From Silvibacterium acidisoli (lineage in GTDB: Bacteria > Acidobacteriota > Terriglobia > Terriglobales > Acidobacteriaceae): 64,000 nucleotides of DNA. Numbering within the stretch: the first letter of the stretch is position 1; each line of letters opens with the position of its first letter. A program made the translations under genes and the position numbers. The notes beneath the pieces are model-generated. The model made no database searches, was not told the DNA's origin, and saw nothing but the letters and a program-made list of their open reading frames with translations. This document shows, one piece after another, positions 31,761 through 61,055 of the stretch. The stretch is taken from positions 124,001-188,000 of the forward strand of contig CP085323.1 of the NCBI GenBank assembly GCA_022870745.1, given 5' to 3'.

Positions 31761-32204
31761 TTACTTCTTTACAGCGATGGCACTGATCTCGATCTTTGCG
31801 TCGCCGATCAGCCCTGCAACCTTAACCGTTGCGCGCGCCGGCTTCGGATCGGGCATCAGCTTGATGTAGACCTTGTTCATCGCCGGCACATCCGCCAGGT
31901 CCGTGACGTAGACAGTCACGTTGACGATGTCAGACATCTTGAAGCCAGCCTTCTCGACGACCTTCTGCACTGCCGCGATCGCATTGGTCGTCTGCAGTGT
32001 GATATCCGTTCCGGTCACCTTGCCATTTTCATCCGGACCCTGCTGCCCAGCCACGTAAAGTGTTTTGCCTGCAACGTAGCCATCGCTAAACGGCATTCCC
32101 TGCTTGAAGTCGATCGCTTTGTTCTGTGCAAACGCGCTTGCCGAAGCACAGAGCGCCATGATTCCGGCCACTGCCAGGCCACGCTTCATCATGTTCTTAG
32201 TCAT
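31761..32204 (-). CDS. Exported RidA/YjgF-family protein
   Basis: About 147 residues from the ATG at 32204, after GGAG; an upstream in-frame start lacks a ribosome site. A Sec-type signal peptide (MMKRGLAVAGIMALCASASAFA) precedes a single RidA domain with YVAGQQG, VYVTDLADVPAMN, the catalytic arginine in PARATVKVA, and the Glu of IEISAIAV. RidA proteins hydrolyse reactive enamines and imines made by PLP enzymes, normally in the cytoplasm, so the signal peptide is notable. It lies 68 bases after a threonine aldolase gene on the same strand. Confidence 0.9.
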   Translation of the reverse strand: MTKNMMKRGLAVAGIMALCASASAFAQNKAIDFKQGMPFSDGYVAGKTLYVAGQQGPDENGKVTGTDITLQTTNAIAAVQKVVEKAGFKMSDIVNVTVYVTDLADVPAMNKVYIKLMPDPKPARATVKVAGLIGDAKIEISAIAVKK

Positions 32205-32272: not shown

Positions 32273-33340
32273 TCAGGAAAACGATTGTCCAGAGAGTACT
32301 TCTGCCACTATGTGAGACGCCGACTCACAGTCTGCGCGATTCACATCGCGATGTGTCACGAACCGAATCTGGTCTGATGCCGCCGAACCTGCGGCCACGC
32401 CGCGTTTCTTCAGTTGCGCCAGCACCGGACCTACGTCCTGCACTCCGAGTAAACGGAAGATGACGATGTTCGTCTGCACGGTCGACAGATCGATTTCTAC
32501 GCCGGGCAGCGTGGCAACGAACTCGGCGAGGAAACGGGCATTCGCATGATCTTCCGCCAGCCGTGATGGCATTTCTTCCAGAGCGATGAGCCCGGCCGCT
32601 GCGAGAATACCGGCCTGACGCATGCCGCCACCGAGCATCTTGCGTACCGAGCGGGCACGCTCGATGAACCGCCTGCTGCCGACCAGCATCGAGCCGACAG
32701 GTGCGCACAAGCCTTTCGACAGACAGAACATCACACTCGAGAAGCCTGCGGTGAGTTCCGAAACAGGAATTCCCAGCGCAGTTGCCGCATTGAAAACGCG
32801 AGCGCCATCGAGGTGCGTAGGCAGACCAGCGTCTCGCGCGCCCGACCAGATCTCTTCGTACACTTCCAGCGGAGTGACGGTGCCGCCAGCCATGTTATGC
32901 GAGTTCTCAAGCGCGATGAGCCCGGTCATGGGGCGGTAATAGATCTGAGGAGCGATCATCGCCTTGATCCGATCCCAGGTCAACACGCCGCGATCGCCCG
33001 CAACGGGGCGCAACTGGCAGCCGGAAAAGGCAGAGACCATCGCCATCTCCCAGTCAAGAATATGGGCGCGGGCTTCACAGATTACTTCCTGCCCGGGCTG
33101 CGTGTGCAGCCGGATCGCAATCTGGTTCCCCATGGATCCGGTGGGCACGAAGATAGCAGACTCGCGGCCGAAGATCTCCGCTGCGCGGGCTTCCAGGCGA
33201 TTGACTGTGGGGTCTTCTCCATAAACGTCATCACCCACTTCGGCTGTTGCCATGGCGTGGCGCATCGCCTCAGTGGGGTGAGTTACGGTGTCGCTGCGCA
33301 GGTCGATCACCCGCGTGCTGCTCGTTCCTTCAACTGTCAT
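32273..33340 (-). CDS. Low-specificity L-threonine aldolase (PLP enzyme)
   Basis: The 355-residue fold-type I PLP enzyme opens with IDLRSDTVTHPTEAMRHAM, the threonine-aldolase N-terminus, followed by GDDVYGEDPTVNRLE. Further marks are the PTGSMGNQIA cofactor loop, HLDGARVFNAA (PLP Asp) and FCLSKGLCAPVGS, with the Schiff-base lysine. It splits threonine or allo-threonine to glycine and acetaldehyde. It has no signal peptide, so it should be cytoplasmic, unlike the RidA protein encoded next. Confidence 0.93.
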   Translation of the reverse strand: MTVEGTSSTRVIDLRSDTVTHPTEAMRHAMATAEVGDDVYGEDPTVNRLEARAAEIFGRESAIFVPTGSMGNQIAIRLHTQPGQEVICEARAHILDWEMAMVSAFSGCQLRPVAGDRGVLTWDRIKAMIAPQIYYRPMTGLIALENSHNMAGGTVTPLEVYEEIWSGARDAGLPTHLDGARVFNAATALGIPVSELTAGFSSVMFCLSKGLCAPVGSMLVGSRRFIERARSVRKMLGGGMRQAGILAAAGLIALEEMPSRLAEDHANARFLAEFVATLPGVEIDLSTVQTNIVIFRLLGVQDVGPVLAQLKKRGVAAGSAASDQIRFVTHRDVNRADCESASHIVAEVLSGQSFS

Positions 33341-42818: not shown

Positions 42819-43364
42819 ATGCAGATCAACACCCGGCGCACCTTCTTTGGAAAACTTGCCGCCATGACGGCCGCTGCCGTCGGCGCGCCCCGTCTCATCG
42901 CGCAGGCCACGGCGCCCGCAACGCCTGAAACCACTGTCGCCCCCCGCCACGGCAACAACCATGTGCACAACGGCGTCTACTACTTCTCGGGAACAGGCTC
43001 CAACGACGGGTATCCTGCTACCGATCACGTAACTGTCGCGGATCCTTTTGAAAAGCATGTGACCCGCACCATGGATGCTCTGAAGAAGACCCTCGAAGAG
43101 AACGGCTGCACCATGGACAGCATCCTGAACCTGCAGGTCTTCCTCTGCCTGCCCCTGGCCGACGGCGTGCCTATGCCGAGCGGTAAAGCCCGCTTCGATG
43201 CGCACCATGCGCAGTACGACGCGCTCAACAAGATTTACCGGACCTACTTCAGCCCCGGAAAAGCTCCCTCGCGCGCCTGCATGGCTCTGGAGTGGATCCC
43301 GGGCGATTCGCTGATCGAAATCGTGGGCTCTGCCCTCGTCGTAAACCCGCCTGCCGGCGCCTAA
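42819..43364 (+). CDS. Tat-exported RidA/YjgF-family protein
   Basis: The 181-residue protein follows AAGGAG and starts with a twin-arginine signal (NTRRTFFGKLAAMTAAAVG). The RidA domain includes YYFSGTGSNDG, TRTMDALKKTLEENG, the Arg of APSRACMALEWIPG and the Glu of SLIEIVGSAL, matching the catalytic pair of RidA. A short insertion (PLADGVPMPSGKARFDAHH) distinguishes it. It lies 23 bases before a Tat-exported SelA-like PLP enzyme, so the two likely act together in the periplasm. Confidence 0.88.
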   Translation: MQINTRRTFFGKLAAMTAAAVGAPRLIAQATAPATPETTVAPRHGNNHVHNGVYYFSGTGSNDGYPATDHVTVADPFEKHVTRTMDALKKTLEENGCTMDSILNLQVFLCLPLADGVPMPSGKARFDAHHAQYDALNKIYRTYFSPGKAPSRACMALEWIPGDSLIEIVGSALVVNPPAGA

Positions 43365-43387
43365 GAACTTAAGAAAAGGATCGACTG

Positions 43388-44797
43388 ATGAGCTGGAAAT
43401 TTGACTGGAGCCGACGCTCCTTCCTGACTGCCCTTGGAGCCGCCGCAGGTACCGTGCTTACGCCTGAGGCCGGCAAGCTGCTGGCCGAAGGTATGGGTAG
43501 CAAGAACGCAGGCGTTGCAGACATTCTGAAACCAACCTCCAATGATGGGCACCCGATCGTTCCTATCAAGAGCGGTCTCGGTTCCACCGGGGATATTTAC
43601 GCCGAGCTCGGCGTAACGCCGCTGATCAACATCAACGGGACGGTGACCGTGATTGGCGGCTCGGTTATGAAGCCTGAAGTGATGGAGCTGATCCGCCAGG
43701 GCAACCAGCACTTCGTCCTCATCGACGAGCTGGAGATGGCCGCAGGCAAGTGGATCGCCAAGCTTTGCAAATCGCCCGCAGGCTACACCGGTCTGGTGAC
43801 AGGCGGAGCAGCTGCGGCGCTGGTTGTCGGCTACTCGGCCATGATGACCGAGGACCTCGAACCGCGCCTCAAGACCATCCCCGATGTCACCGGCTTCCCC
43901 CGCACAGAAGTGATCATTCAGAAGAGTCATCGTTACGCATTCGACCACCAGATTCGCCAGACCGGCGCAACGCTGGTCGAAGTCGAAACGAAGGAACAGA
44001 TGATCAACGCCATCAACCCGAAGACGGTGGCGATTCACTTCACCAACATCCTCTCCGATCACGGGCAGGTCAGCGGACCGGAGACCGTGGCCATCGCCAA
44101 GGCACACGGCATCTACACCTTCAACGACGCTTCGGCGGATGTCCCGCCGGTTTCGCGCCTGTGGGAGTATCCGGCGGTCGGCTTCGATCTGACGACCTTC
44201 TCCGGCGGCAAGGACATCTGCGGACCGCAGGCCTCTGGCATCCTCATCGGACGCGAAGATCTCATCAAGTGGTCGCTGCTCAACATGAGCCCGCAGGAAG
44301 ACCGCATCGGCCGCTGCTGCAAGGTGGGTAAAGAGACAATCTTTGGCCTGCTGAAGGCGCTCGAAATATTTATCGAACATCATCAGGACTTCGACGCGGT
44401 CATCCGCATGTACGACGAGCGTGCCGCCGTGATCACAAAGGCAGTCGAGAAGTTCGGTATTACAGCAAGGCCCCGTCAGTTCGATCCGAACGCACTCGGC
44501 AATGTCACGCCGTTCTACAGCTGGCAGATCGACCCTGCAAAGACGAAAATCACGGGCCACGATGTGCTGCTGCAACTGGCCGCCACCAGGCCAGTCGGCA
44601 TCGGCAGCATGGGTGCGGGAGCCAGCGGTATGCGCGGACGCGATCCCGAGGCCGATAAGAAGCCCAAGCCGGAACACCACAACCATCGCACCGAGGACCC
44701 GAACACCTTCGGCTTCGCGGTATGGCAATTGAAGGAAGGCGAAGACAGGATCATCGCCGACCGCTTGCAGGAGATCCTCAGCGCAGCCAAGGCCTGA
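43388..44797 (+). CDS. Tat-exported SelA-like PLP-dependent enzyme
   Basis: The 469-residue protein has a twin-arginine signal (SRRSFLTALGAAAGT), then a fold-type I PLP domain of the SelA/DgaE group: YAELGVTPLININGT, SGYLVTGG-like GLVTGGAAAAL, FNDASADVPP (D247) and FSGGKDICGPQASGILIG, with the Schiff-base lysine K275. Family members include selenocysteine synthase and D-glucosaminate-6-phosphate ammonia-lyase. No selenoprotein gene is seen, and export rules out a SelA role. It is probably a lyase acting on an amino sugar or amino acid outside the cytoplasm. A terminator follows. Confidence 0.85.
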   Translation: MSWKFDWSRRSFLTALGAAAGTVLTPEAGKLLAEGMGSKNAGVADILKPTSNDGHPIVPIKSGLGSTGDIYAELGVTPLININGTVTVIGGSVMKPEVMELIRQGNQHFVLIDELEMAAGKWIAKLCKSPAGYTGLVTGGAAAALVVGYSAMMTEDLEPRLKTIPDVTGFPRTEVIIQKSHRYAFDHQIRQTGATLVEVETKEQMINAINPKTVAIHFTNILSDHGQVSGPETVAIAKAHGIYTFNDASADVPPVSRLWEYPAVGFDLTTFSGGKDICGPQASGILIGREDLIKWSLLNMSPQEDRIGRCCKVGKETIFGLLKALEIFIEHHQDFDAVIRMYDERAAVITKAVEKFGITARPRQFDPNALGNVTPFYSWQIDPAKTKITGHDVLLQLAATRPVGIGSMGAGASGMRGRDPEADKKPKPEHHNHRTEDPNTFGFAVWQLKEGEDRIIADRLQEILSAAKA

Positions 44798-44814
44798 GTT
44801 AAGAACAGTAAACG

Positions 44815-44846
44815 AAAAGCGCCCCTCACACTGAGGGGCGCTTTTT
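44815..44846 (+). terminator. Bidirectional terminator between convergent genes
   Basis: GCGCCCCTCA (44819-44828) pairs with TGAGGGGCGC (44832-44841), with AAAA before and TTTTT after, so it can stop transcription from both sides. Confidence 0.92.
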
Positions 44847-44851
44847 GTTCC

Positions 44852-48588: not shown

Positions 48589-50961
48589 TCAATCCTTCGG
48601 CACATCCATCGCGTTTGCGCCCGCATGCAGGGGATAGCTCTTCCCTTTCCACTCGAATGTTCCGGTGAGCGCGGCGGGAAGGTTTACCTGGGCGTGCACT
48701 GAAGTTCCGCGCACGCTGTAGTCCACGGCGATCTCACCGCGGGGCGAAGGATAGCTGGCTTTCAGTTGCTTGAGAGAACCCAGTGCCGGAGCGATCTTTA
48801 CCTGCGCAAAATTCGGAGCAGCAGGCCTAATGCCGGCGATGGTCGTTAGCAGATCGATGTTCGGGTGCGCCGTCCAGGCGTGTGAATCGGAGCGCGTGGG
48901 CTCCGGCTCTTCGGCCCATGTCGACAGCCCCAGTGACAGCATCGTCCTCCACGGAGCGAGTGTCTCGTTGTAGCGGTCGCCCAGCCCCGCATGCACGAGG
49001 CCGCGCGTCAGGTAGAAGCGGAAGTAGTTCGACGCCACCGAAAACTCCTTCGGCAGCGGGCTATCCGTATGGAACCCTGCATCGGTCGCGGAGAAGATTC
49101 GCGTCATCACTGCCGCCTGCTGCGCTTTCGGTATCACGTCGAGCCACACCGCCAGGGCATTGGCCTGCTGGCTGAAGTGGTTCTTCTCTGTGGTATCCGC
49201 CAGCAGTTCGTCCTGCTGCGACCAGTAACGGTCATAGATCGTCTTGCGAAGCCGTGCGGCCTCATCCGCGTCTTCACGGCCGAGGTTTGCGTCCCCGAGA
49301 ACATCTTCCATCTCTGCCGCGTTATTCAATGCTTCGAGATAAAAGAGACCGCCTGCCGCGCTCACTCCATTCGCATCCGCAGGCGAGTTCCCTCCAGGAA
49401 ATCCCGCCGCCCAATCCACGAAAGGCCACCAGTCGGGCAATGCAGGCAATCCATCCTTGTTCAGGCGTGCGCGAAAATAACTCAGCTCACTCCGCACAGC
49501 GGGCAGCTGCTCACGCACGAACTGAGGATCGTTGCGGTAGTACCAGTAGTCGTGCACGATACCAACCCATATCAGCGAGAAATTCTGGATCATTTGCAGA
49601 AGCCTGGACGGATACCGGCTCTGCGTGATCCCCTCCGGCTGCATGGAATCGCGGAAGGCGAGGATGGCCTGTCGAGCCAGCCGGTCATCGCCCGTGTTGG
49701 TGTAGGAAATCAGCGTCTGGATGCGCGTGTCACCGATGTACTGCAGCCGCTCCCAGTAAGGCGTATCCATGTAGGCATCGTGTGCGCAAAGCCGGGCCGT
49801 GCGCCATCCGACCTCCCAGATCTTCGAGAGCGAGTCGTCATCACTCGAAAATGTCGCGCGATGCTCGAAGGGGTACGCGGTGAAATTTACCGTGAGCGAC
49901 TCCAGCTTCAAGGGAGTCGCCGCGGTGGTTACATCCATCTGCAGATAGCGCCACGTTCTCCAGTCAAGGGGCGTGAAGGCGCGATGAGCTCCACCGTCAG
50001 GCAGCAGTTCATCGGATACCCCTACCTCGTGTTTGCCTTCGATCTGGTTGCGATTGCCCTTGTTGCCGTGGTCATCGATCAACGCCTCGGCGTAGCGCAT
50101 CGCGATATCAGCCCCCTTGCCGTCGGAAACCGTCAGCGTGGGATACGCCGTTGTGAGCGTGCCACGATCAATCAGCAAGGTTGCATGACTGTTTGCCGGG
50201 ATCACGATCGCGTGCGAAGGAAAGCGCTCGGCGTCTTCAACGCCAGAGCTACGGACGACACGGCCTGCATAGGTCTCGCTGAACTCCATCGGGGGCAAAG
50301 TATCGGGAACGAGTAGCCAGTTGGTGCCAGGGTTTTCACCGCGTGTCACTCCCCTGCCCAGCGAGGCTGCCGGTTTCCAATCCCCCTGCGGGCTGTCGCT
50401 GCTCCAGTCCCAAGTGGACTTCGCGGCATCGATCCGTTCGCCCGAAGATGCCACGTAGTAGAAGTACTTCAAATCATCCGGCTTCGGAGAAAACCCATAC
50501 CCCTGCTCCACAATCGCCTGCCAGGTTTTGTTGGTGGCGATCGCCGCCTCGGCCTGCGATTCGGGCTCCAGGAGAAATCCAAGTCGCCAGGTAATCTGCC
50601 GTATCGGAGCAATCTCTCCCAGGTTCCACACGGTGGCCGCGACTACGTTACGTCCGGCGTGGAGGGCAGGTGCGAGGTCGTAGGTCTCATAGCGCCAATG
50701 CTGCATATCGCCAACGCTTGGGCCGTCACCGATGCGCCTGCCGTTCACCATCAGCACAAAGTGATTATCGGCCGATACATGAACCATATAGTGTGCAGGC
50801 ACAGCGTCGAGCGTGATCTCCTTGCGGAAATGCACCACGGCAGGCTCATACGAAGGAGCATCCGCCGCGGTGATCCAATCGGCAGTAAAGCGGTGCGGCG
50901 CGGTTTGCGCGGAAGTAACGGCGGCAGAAATACAGAGCAGAAAGCAGGCTATCGGACGCAT
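48589..50961 (-). CDS. Alpha-L-rhamnosidase-like glycosidase (GH78)
   Basis: The 790-residue protein has a signal peptide (IACFLLCISAAVTSAQ) and a lectin-like beta-sandwich with the GH78 opening (AHYMVHVSADNHFVLMVNGR, YDLAPALHAGRNVVAA). The (alpha/alpha)6 catalytic barrel carries the conserved segments DTPYWERLQYIGDTRIQ and YPSRLLQMIQNFSLIW, and DWWPFVDW. A C-terminal beta domain ends it (GEIAVDYSVRGTSVHAQVNL). It should release rhamnose from plant or bacterial glycans outside the cytoplasm. The alpha-galactosidase further right adds to a plant-polysaccharide theme. Confidence 0.9.
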   Translation of the reverse strand: MRPIACFLLCISAAVTSAQTAPHRFTADWITAADAPSYEPAVVHFRKEITLDAVPAHYMVHVSADNHFVLMVNGRRIGDGPSVGDMQHWRYETYDLAPALHAGRNVVAATVWNLGEIAPIRQITWRLGFLLEPESQAEAAIATNKTWQAIVEQGYGFSPKPDDLKYFYYVASSGERIDAAKSTWDWSSDSPQGDWKPAASLGRGVTRGENPGTNWLLVPDTLPPMEFSETYAGRVVRSSGVEDAERFPSHAIVIPANSHATLLIDRGTLTTAYPTLTVSDGKGADIAMRYAEALIDDHGNKGNRNQIEGKHEVGVSDELLPDGGAHRAFTPLDWRTWRYLQMDVTTAATPLKLESLTVNFTAYPFEHRATFSSDDDSLSKIWEVGWRTARLCAHDAYMDTPYWERLQYIGDTRIQTLISYTNTGDDRLARQAILAFRDSMQPEGITQSRYPSRLLQMIQNFSLIWVGIVHDYWYYRNDPQFVREQLPAVRSELSYFRARLNKDGLPALPDWWPFVDWAAGFPGGNSPADANGVSAAGGLFYLEALNNAAEMEDVLGDANLGREDADEAARLRKTIYDRYWSQQDELLADTTEKNHFSQQANALAVWLDVIPKAQQAAVMTRIFSATDAGFHTDSPLPKEFSVASNYFRFYLTRGLVHAGLGDRYNETLAPWRTMLSLGLSTWAEEPEPTRSDSHAWTAHPNIDLLTTIAGIRPAAPNFAQVKIAPALGSLKQLKASYPSPRGEIAVDYSVRGTSVHAQVNLPAALTGTFEWKGKSYPLHAGANAMDVPKD

Positions 50962-59468: not shown

Positions 59469-60989
59469 TTACTTGCTGCTGACCTTCAAGAGGAGGGTTG
59501 CGTGTGAAGGAAGTTGAGCCGAATACGTTCCATCGGCAAACTTCACATCCGCATGCTTCCAAAGGTCGCGTGCCTTCTTCACCGGGCCTGCCAGGTGCAG
59601 ATCGCTCGCGTTGATGCTTGCTTTCGCTTCCGATGCGCCCATGTTCACGATACCGACAGCGACACTTCCGTCAGCCAGCGGCTTCACCCAGGTTTCGAGA
59701 TCGCCATTCTTAGCCGGCGATGCCTGCTTGCCGAGCTTGTCCTGGTCGACGGCGATCACTTCATGGTTCATCAGGATCGACTTGGTCGTGTCCGACATGC
59801 TGCGAAGATCGTTGCCAGCCAGCAGCGGTGCCGCGGTCAGCGCCCACAGGCTCATGTGCGTACGATATTCATCGTCCGTCATGTGCCCGTTGCCGATCTC
59901 CAGCATATCGGGATCGTTCCAGTGTCCGGGACCGGCATAGGGAGCGGTCGGAACCTGTTTCTCGATATTTTCGATCATGCTTGACCATTCATCACGAATG
60001 TCGCCGGTCGTTCTCCACAGGTTCCCGGCCACCTGGGGTCCCCATGTTTCAACTTTTCCAAGACCATACTCGCAGAGGCTGAAGACGATCGGCCGATTGG
60101 TAGCTTTGAGAGCCGCGCCCATCTTCTGATAGACCGGTTGAAGATCCTTGTCCTGATACACCATCGAAGCGCTGCACCAGTCGTACTTCAGATAGTCGAT
60201 GCCCCAGGCGGCGAAGGTCTTCGCATCCTGCTCCTCATGGCCATAGCTGCCGGGATATCCCGCGCAGGTGCGCGGCCCAGGCGAGGAATAGATACCCAGC
60301 TTCAGGCCTTTCGAGTGGACATAATCGGCAAGCGCCTTCATGTCGGGGAACTTGTGGTTGGGCTGCAGAACGCCCTGTGCGTCACGCACGCCTTCCCATG
60401 TGTCATCGATGTTGATGTAGACGTAGCCCGCGTCGCGCATGCCGCTGGATACCATTGCGTCCGCCATCGTGCGGACAGTGGCGTCATCCACTTTGCCGGC
60501 AAACAGGTTCCAGCTATTCCAGCCCATCGGAGGAGTCATCGCCAGGCCGTTCGTCGTTACAGGCTGAATCGCAGGGGGAGTGATGTACTCCACGGTCGGC
60601 AGGTCATCGTTTGGACCGGCCTTCGTGGCCACAAACGGATGGTTTCTGCCGCGAATCCCATGCAGTTCACCGTTCGCGAGATCACCGTTCAGAAACGGTC
60701 GTCCTTCATGAGCGGCATTGAACAACTCGAAGTGGGTGTCTTTTATCGTGCCCTTCACGTCGAAGGCGTACCCCAGTGATTTCACCTGCCCGGTAAGATC
60801 CGCACCGTTCTGATTCAGGTTGAGGATCATGCGCTGCTGCTCGCCGTTATCGAGCGTCATGCCATTCGAAATCCATTTTCCAGCGATGCTTGGCGCATGG
60901 CTGCATCCAGAGAGCAATGCTCCACAAAGCAGTGCTGGCACAACCCACGGCATGCGCGCACTGCGGACAAGGACATTCCTTAATTTCAT
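59469..60989 (-). CDS. Alpha-galactosidase (GH27), lipoprotein
   Basis: About 506 residues from the ATG at 60989, after AAAGGAGGAAAG; the frame is open further upstream. The N-terminus is a lipoprotein signal (LLCGALLSGCSHAP). After a small beta domain comes the GH27 barrel: MTPPMGWNSWNLF, YVYINIDDTWEG, KLGIYSSPGPRTCAGYPGS, the nucleophile Asp in YLKYDWCSAS, and the acid/base Asp in RTTGDIRDEWSS. A C-terminal beta domain ends the protein. It removes terminal alpha-galactose from oligosaccharides or plant galactomannans on the cell surface. Confidence 0.94.
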   Translation of the reverse strand: MKLRNVLVRSARMPWVVPALLCGALLSGCSHAPSIAGKWISNGMTLDNGEQQRMILNLNQNGADLTGQVKSLGYAFDVKGTIKDTHFELFNAAHEGRPFLNGDLANGELHGIRGRNHPFVATKAGPNDDLPTVEYITPPAIQPVTTNGLAMTPPMGWNSWNLFAGKVDDATVRTMADAMVSSGMRDAGYVYINIDDTWEGVRDAQGVLQPNHKFPDMKALADYVHSKGLKLGIYSSPGPRTCAGYPGSYGHEEQDAKTFAAWGIDYLKYDWCSASMVYQDKDLQPVYQKMGAALKATNRPIVFSLCEYGLGKVETWGPQVAGNLWRTTGDIRDEWSSMIENIEKQVPTAPYAGPGHWNDPDMLEIGNGHMTDDEYRTHMSLWALTAAPLLAGNDLRSMSDTTKSILMNHEVIAVDQDKLGKQASPAKNGDLETWVKPLADGSVAVGIVNMGASEAKASINASDLHLAGPVKKARDLWKHADVKFADGTYSAQLPSHATLLLKVSSK

Positions 60990-61055
60990 TCTTTCCTCCT
61001 TTTTAAAAACCTTTCTCTTCACCCAACCACTCACACTCGTCATCGGGATCACTCC

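Follow-up and report, generated by a model that had tools for sequence, protein, structure and literature searches.

A recurrent gene pair for a predicted Tat-exported RidA protein and a predicted Tat-exported SelA/DgaE-fold PLP enzyme in Acidobacteriota

RidA proteins are guards against reactive enamines inside cells and are classically paired with 2-aminoacrylate, and the hallmark of the Rid family is a catalytic arginine (and glutamate) towards the C-terminus. A gene pair of the acidobacterium Silvibacterium acidisoli raises the question of whether such a protein may also serve outside the cytoplasmic membrane. Within the 64 kb stretch of DNA analysed here (the window), a Rid-family gene is followed by a gene encoding a PLP enzyme of SelA/DgaE fold (Table 1). 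A first-pass annotation of the window proposed that both proteins are exported and together carry out a full step of amino-acid or amino-sugar deamination in the periplasm, PLP being inserted before export. Its reading of the locus was accurate regarding the coordinates, strand and 23-base spacing of the two open reading frames, the intact Arg and Glu of RidA (Arg152 and Glu167), the intact Lys275 of the PLP enzyme, and a twin-arginine signal at the N-terminus of both proteins.

Table 1 Features of the RidA/PLP gene pair, with positions counted from the first base of the window.
Feature	Position	Strand	Details
Rid-family protein gene, 181 aa	42819..43364	+	N-terminal Tat signal TRRTFFGKL (~residues 1-30), Arg152, Glu167
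Intergenic gap, 23 bases	43365..43387	+	ribosome-binding-site-like AAAAGG; read directly from the sequence
SelA/DgaE-fold PLP enzyme gene, 469 aa	43388..44797	+	Tat signal SRRSFLTAL (~residues 1-33), Lys275
Intrinsic-terminator-like hairpin 3' of the PLP gene	44811..44849	+	18 pairs; consensus match only

Sequences resembling ribosome-binding sites lie immediately 5' of both start codons (AAGGAGA for the RidA gene, AAAAGG for the PLP gene), and the nearest likely genes flanking the pair run in the opposite direction on both sides. No promoter-like site was found on the + strand of the region scanned, and the terminator-like sites across the region show no excess (three vs a shuffle mean of 2.8).

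The first-pass annotation held that a RidA gene usually found without the PLP gene would speak against its proposal, and this is not what the genomes revealed. The 150 genomes searched within the family include nine with a close RidA (E <1e-60) and 13 with a close PLP protein (E <=6e-161); the RidA gene adjoins the PLP gene in all nine, thus pairing nine of the 13 PLP genes, and a more distant RidA group, present in nine genomes, adjoins it in six. Three genomes of the same genus (G066, G117 and G141) hold neither gene at limits of 1e-10 for RidA and 1e-60 for the PLP protein. A wider profile search gave 143 PLP hits, of which 78 were kept as rows. Eight with a match of <300 residues were dropped, namely two pieces each of L014 and L114 (one place, frameshifted, with RidA adjacent), L074 (RidA adjacent), L033, one cut copy in L098 and one fragment in L117; for L033, no RidA was found in the 1.3 kb of upstream sequence available on the contig. 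The 57 others not kept repeated kept cores or showed already covered places once more (L004-L021). In a tree of the 78 rows, built by a quick method and carrying a long-branch warning, 32 rows form clade I, which includes the window enzyme, 13 form clade II and 33 fall elsewhere. A RidA gene lies within 400 bp of the PLP gene in 24/32 rows of clade I (23 on the same strand, with gaps of 23-68 bp, and one divergent), 10/13 of clade II and 10/33 of the others, leaving 8/32, 3/13 and 23/33, respectively, without an adjacent RidA. One of the RidA-less clade-I rows (L071) starts at a contig edge, and searching upstream of the other seven revealed decayed scraps of a RidA C-terminus just upstream in L065 (E down to 4e-11) and L058 (4e-4), with a weak trace in L051. 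Within clade I, Terriglobus roseus (L057) carries the PLP gene with no RidA gene adjoining it, and Acidipila rosea (L056) and Edaphobacter modestus (L068) carry both genes as a pair. The frequent pairing together with the decayed scraps makes the pair look ancestral in clade I, with later losses. Outside both clades, a Chitinophagaceae contig (L079) and contig L080 carry the RidA/PLP pair together with genes for an amidohydrolase and RraA. Other arrangements were also observed; in eight loci (L132, L136, L145, L146, L148, L149, L152 and L154), a Tat-type RidA lies between two Tat-type DgaE-like PLP genes, one encoding ~420-450 aa and the other a longer protein (~535 aa or more where complete).

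A Tat motif reads S/T-R-R-x-F-L/F and is followed by a hydrophobic stretch, and both proteins display this combination in conserved form. In the PLP alignment, which comprises 50 of the 78 rows and excludes the long paralogue type (~535 aa and more), R9 and R10 are the sole invariant columns before residue 74, with RR in 50/50 rows. RR also precedes a hydrophobic stretch in 76/76 rows holding the N-terminus (of 78), although the RR picker and the signal test use the best of several starts and are therefore biased towards finding signals. Among 46 distinct neighbouring RidAs, 38 of the 44 with an N-terminus carry a Tat-like RR signal as judged by eye; the exceptions are L105 (HRSK), L099 (Sec-type) and the three-domain RidAs of L120, L121, L122 and L126, where those of L120 and L126 do show RR ahead of a Sec-like stretch. 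Loss of the Tat motifs among orthologues, the other outcome that the first-pass annotation had named as refuting, was accordingly not seen. The NCBIfam model TAT_signal_seq places the PLP protein marginally under its cut-off (16.4 vs 16.7 bits) and RidA is without a listed match. A tatC gene is present in the window genome. Chance neighbourhood was rejected as an explanation of the pair, as the pairing recurs (9/9 genomes, 24/32 rows of clade I), and with R9 and R10 invariant, the pair and its Tat signals go beyond chance. Both proteins are thereby predicted from their N-termini to leave the cytoplasm, and a coupled, exported RidA/PLP pair is well supported at the sequence level, since the twin-arginine signals persist among orthologues and a close RidA is as a rule accompanied by the PLP gene. 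PLP loading ahead of export is known only from other Tat-exported PLP enzymes, PvdN and PtaA, as described in the available text (PMC6206403). Besides, the Tat signals of the DgaE-like proteins of L128, L129 and L131 end in a lipobox-like LATGC or LANGC, by which these proteins are possibly Tat-exported lipoproteins.

The RidA protein, with the N-terminus MQINTRRTFFGKLAAM, passes the gathering threshold of the Pfam family Ribonuc_L-PSP (PF01042; E 4.3e-12, 46.5 vs 27.3 bits) and scores below the cut-off of the NCBIfam RidA subfamily TIGR00004 (37.8 vs 106.25 bits). Across 43 aligned RidAs, comprising 42 single-domain RidAs of pairs and the second RidA of the window, with three-domain RidAs excluded, Arg152 is kept in 43/43 and Glu167 in 41/43; L079 and L105 show gaps at the latter, with the reading frame broken near its end. 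The second RidA of the window (31767-32204, - strand) has a Sec-type signal and looks exported; its gene is located directly downstream of a PLP gene of the beta-eliminating-lyase type (32273-33340, - strand) encoding a protein without a signal peptide, and it resembles the RidA adjoining RraA in L099.

The PLP enzyme, with the N-terminus MSWKFDWSRRSFLTALGA, passes Pfam SelA (E 2.1e-7, 30.7 vs a gathering threshold of 22.8 bits) as well as Aminotran_5. Canonical SelA was nevertheless rejected, as the score against the NCBIfam model TIGR00474 lies far under its cut-off (28.7 vs 267.9 bits). The DgaE family TIGR01437 matches with E 3.7e-38, yet at 131.4 vs a cut-off of 385.3 bits, and the DgaE model NF047797 at 93.9 vs a cut-off of 600. 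The predicted structure (pLDDT 84.5) has the DgaE lyase 7lc0 as its top fold match (E 1.7e-25; TM 0.86 by target and 0.68 by query), followed by a near-equal Cap15 (8t7j, E 8.9e-25) and, in third place, SelA; 7lc0 is the best PDB match in sequence as well as in structure. The enzyme thus shares the fold and the PLP lysine of DgaE, with Lys275 (SGGK) present in 50/50 aligned rows and aligned with the SGAK lysine of 7lc0. This lysine is Lys217 in the paper on 7lc0 and 213 by chain count, while His162, His163 and the named arginines stand as expected. The window genome encodes two further PLP paralogues, both with RR signals. One of them, of 535 aa (L138:8171-9775; G000, ~C1:1702200-1703800), extends ~100 C-terminal residues beyond the PLP fold, and its gene adjoins an exported-looking RraA-like gene.

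The residues surrounding the DgaE active site set the two enzymes apart. In the accessible text of the DgaE study, a His162-His163 loop serves as proton donor, Arg301/332/346 form the phosphate cluster and Arg226 binds the carboxylate, and the H163A mutant retains good turnover but releases free enamine (PMC9529869). In the window enzyme, Arg301, Arg332 and Arg346 correspond to Phe376, Ser407 and Gln447, in a register counted by hand, and arginine occupies these positions in only 5, 8 and 0 of the 50 aligned rows, respectively, which fits a substrate without phosphate. At the position of Arg226, on the other hand, all 50 rows have Arg or Lys. The His162-His163 pair is missing in the window enzyme and in all 50 rows and, given the behaviour of H163A, a natural enzyme without His163 may need RidA, although this serves as a lead only. 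Acidobacterial homologues that carry no Tat motif and have no RidA nearby (L139, L140, L157 and L158, the last two retaining one His in the loop) lack the pair as well. Its loss is thus not specific to RidA pairing and was dropped as a sign of RidA dependence, and a different residue may act in protonation. With cut-offs, His-His pair and Arg cluster all lacking, DgaE proper was rejected as an identity for the enzyme.

Partner genes in the surroundings could indicate the substrate. Ten partner families were sought throughout the window, and only two TonB-type receptors and the second RidA were found; a KDPG aldolase gene lies elsewhere in the window genome. The window also contains glycosidase genes of the alpha-galactosidase type and alpha-L-rhamnosidase type (59469-61052 and 48589-50961, respectively, both - strand). 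In relatives, partner families were searched by profile in all frames and labelled by Pfam/NCBIfam on one to three representatives each, and the counts are lower bounds, since the flanks vary in length (each side reaches at least 3.5 kb in 21/32 rows of clade I, 8/13 of clade II and 23/33 of the others). Within 4 kb, the 32 rows of clade I show TonB-type receptors (10), MFS carriers (8), lactonases (6), amidohydrolases (5) and RraA (3), and the 13 rows of clade II show quinoproteins (12), MFS carriers (9), RraA (8), cytochrome c (4) and IclR (3). The other 33 rows show deacetylase-family amidohydrolases (15) and RraA (12). Genes for a KDG-kinase-like protein and a KDPG/KHG aldolase lie near the PLP gene in three loci, two of clade II (L103 and L104) and one branching beside it (L107), with the L107 kinase below the cut-off of its best family. 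The clade II MFS carrier tested is nearest to the D-galactonate type, again below cut-off, while the L110 amidohydrolase passes the deacetylase family PRK09237 (376 vs 371 bits). The clade II quinoprotein tested (L108) is nearest to the NCBIfam family 'acido-empty-quinoprotein' and under all cut-offs, making an oxidation step the weakest link. A Pfam scan of clade-I neighbours took 72 of 110 neighbour proteins, and the matches listed (the first 25 of 81 families) include alpha-L-fucosidases (two) and GH20, GH3, GH39 and GH92 (one each). Signal-like N-termini were found in amidohydrolases (22/22), RraA (25/25), SMP30 (9/9), quinoproteins (14/15), cytochrome c (10/10) and 4/10 seven-bladed lactonases, five of the remaining six lactonases beginning with an RR signal. 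Here, the KDG-kinase-like proteins (0/3) and KDPG aldolases (0/3) were the only negatives of the signal test.

Taken together, we infer the chemistry, the substrate and the order of steps as follows. The PLP enzyme would fold and bind PLP on Lys275 in the cytoplasm, after which the Tat system would export the folded protein. Outside the cytoplasmic membrane, it may eliminate water from a non-phosphorylated 2-amino-3-hydroxy acid, the likeliest substrate being a 2-amino-2-deoxy-aldonate such as D-glucosaminate, and release an enamine/imine that the co-exported RidA would hydrolyse to a 2-keto-3-deoxy acid and ammonia. The loci of relatives could surround this deamination with an MFS carrier and with deacylases, lactonases or quinoproteins that look exported, and continue from it through either a signal-less KDG-kinase-like protein and KDPG aldolase (three loci) or an exported-looking RraA-type aldolase. 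We give roughly even chances to the pair performing one deamination step on an amino-aldonic substrate in this way, with RidA finishing the reaction. The amino-sugar acid is itself our guess, favoured by neighbours in relatives that belong mainly to other clades. The complete periplasmic step put forward by the first-pass annotation hence stands in part: the coupled and exported pair, with its conserved Tat signals and the close RidA paired in 9/9 genomes, is well supported and an amino-sugar acid is favoured by the context in relatives, whereas the step as a whole is putative, with the frequent absence of an adjacent RidA and the lack of pathway neighbours in the window speaking against it.

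Alternatively, the exported pair may act on another substrate, with the PLP enzyme acting in the periplasm by beta-elimination on ordinary amino acids that bear a hydroxy or amino substituent, such as D/L-serine, threonine, 2,3-diaminopropionate or cell-wall D-amino acids. In that case, RidA would clear 2-aminoacrylate and ammonia would be the useful product. The fold and the lysine are compatible with any beta-elimination, RidA is classically tied to 2-aminoacrylate, and the L110 amidohydrolase neighbour comes from a deacetylase family. In addition, the substrates of OngC, a cytosolic analogue, include D-serine and D-threonine as well, according to the available text of its report (PMC9537276). 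However, the neighbours in relatives include sugar-acid genes (galactonate-carrier-like MFS, lactonases, KDG-kinase-like protein and KDPG aldolase), and the glycosidases listed near clade-I genes likewise argue against an eliminase of ordinary amino acids, which we regard as unlikely while granting it real weight.

A reaction of a different kind, with the PLP enzyme using oxygen as an oxidase or oxygenase-decarboxylase in the manner of Cap15 or PvdN and RidA hydrolysing the imine product, appears improbable. Cap15, the second-best fold match, does act on a beta-hydroxy-alpha-amino acid and oxygen is available outside the membrane, and the accessible texts class PvdN with Cap15 (PMC7497351) and describe it as Tat-exported (PMC6206403). 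Yet the lyase 7lc0 is a slightly better match in both fold and sequence, and the KDPG-aldolase and KDG-kinase-like neighbours of three loci expect a 2-keto-3-deoxy product. It could also be speculated that RidA is exported for another role, such as chaperone or ligand binding, or that the pair has drifted into redundancy, with no joint reaction at all. The PLP genes without an adjacent RidA (8/32 in clade I and 23/33 outside clades I and II) would agree with this, as would the several roles ascribed to RidA proteins in the available text of one report (PMC9537276). Against it, Arg152 and Glu167 are kept in 43/43 and 41/43 aligned RidAs, and the two genes occur together in both clades as well as in other branches, Chitinophagaceae contig L079 and contig L080 among them, so that we assign the absence of a joint reaction a low probability.

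For the deamination of an amino-aldonic acid by the exported pair, the nearest characterised analogue is the oxidative chitin pathway OngB-OngC-OngD-KdgK of Pseudoalteromonas. In the accessible text of that study, the PLP enzyme OngC deaminates GlcN1A (D-glucosaminate) to KDG, and growth on GlcNAc1A requires the RidA-family protein OngD, whose role is left open there (PMC9537276). The resemblance consists of a RidA-family OngD beside the PLP enzyme OngC, a deacetylase OngB, a KDG kinase and non-phosphorylated intermediates. However, OngB and OngC are predicted in that text to be cytoplasmic, while both proteins of the window pair bear Tat signals. OngC is also of fold type III, an unrelated PLP fold, in contrast to the fold type I SelA/DgaE enzyme of the window, so the likeness is one of pathway and not of descent. 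DgaE (7lc0, NF047797) shares fold and PLP lysine, but as described in the text available, its substrate is phosphorylated and enters the cell as a PTS product, and its His162-His163 loop and Arg301/332/346 cluster are absent from the window enzyme. PvdN and PtaA provide a precedent for binding PLP in the cytoplasm, being exported folded by Tat and working in the periplasm, though they tailor siderophore side chains and a RidA partner goes unmentioned in the accessible part of that article (PMC6206403). The Gluconacetobacter operon of LAAO, cytochrome c and RidA and the periplasmic LAAO complex of Chlamydomonas similarly tie a (presumed) periplasmic amine oxidiser to RidA; unlike the window enzyme, LAAO is a flavin oxidase and not a PLP lyase, and the available text reports a Tat signal for LAAO only (PMC5053998). 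Finally, the three-domain RidAs are of a kind already named 3x-RidA in the part of the literature available (PMC4433059). They are found beside a relative of the PLP gene in 4/20 loci with short flanks, none being present in the window, and as judged by eye they look Sec-exported, unlike the window RidA. In the three-domain set, 19/20 loci show three domain hits, and the L121 model (pLDDT 86.6) has a RidA-like structural match. The literature searched yielded no exported pair of RidA and PLP lyase, in agreement with the first-pass annotation, which knew of no described periplasmic pair of this kind.

Were a conserved exported RidA indeed tied to an exported PLP lyase, imine/enamine metabolism would reach into the periplasm, and the missing His-His pair of DgaE predicts a release of enamine that RidA should quench. 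More tentatively, and with somewhat greater doubt than belief on our part, Acidobacteriota may carry out an entire non-phosphorylative pathway for amino-sugar acids beyond the cytoplasmic membrane, in which RidA, besides its role as a guard of PLP enzymes in the cytoplasm, is a periplasmic pathway enzyme. Such a pathway would start with an exported quinoprotein/lactonase or deacylase feeding the Tat-exported PLP ammonia-lyase, which, devoid of the proton donor known from DgaE, would release a free enamine for the co-exported RidA to complete the reaction. It could then end with an exported RraA aldolase, or with an MFS carrier leading to KDG kinase and KDPG aldolase inside the cell. The pair would make RidA a candidate for a dedicated pathway enzyme, and it points to a possible route by which soil acidobacteria may use oxidised amino sugars from chitin or cell walls.
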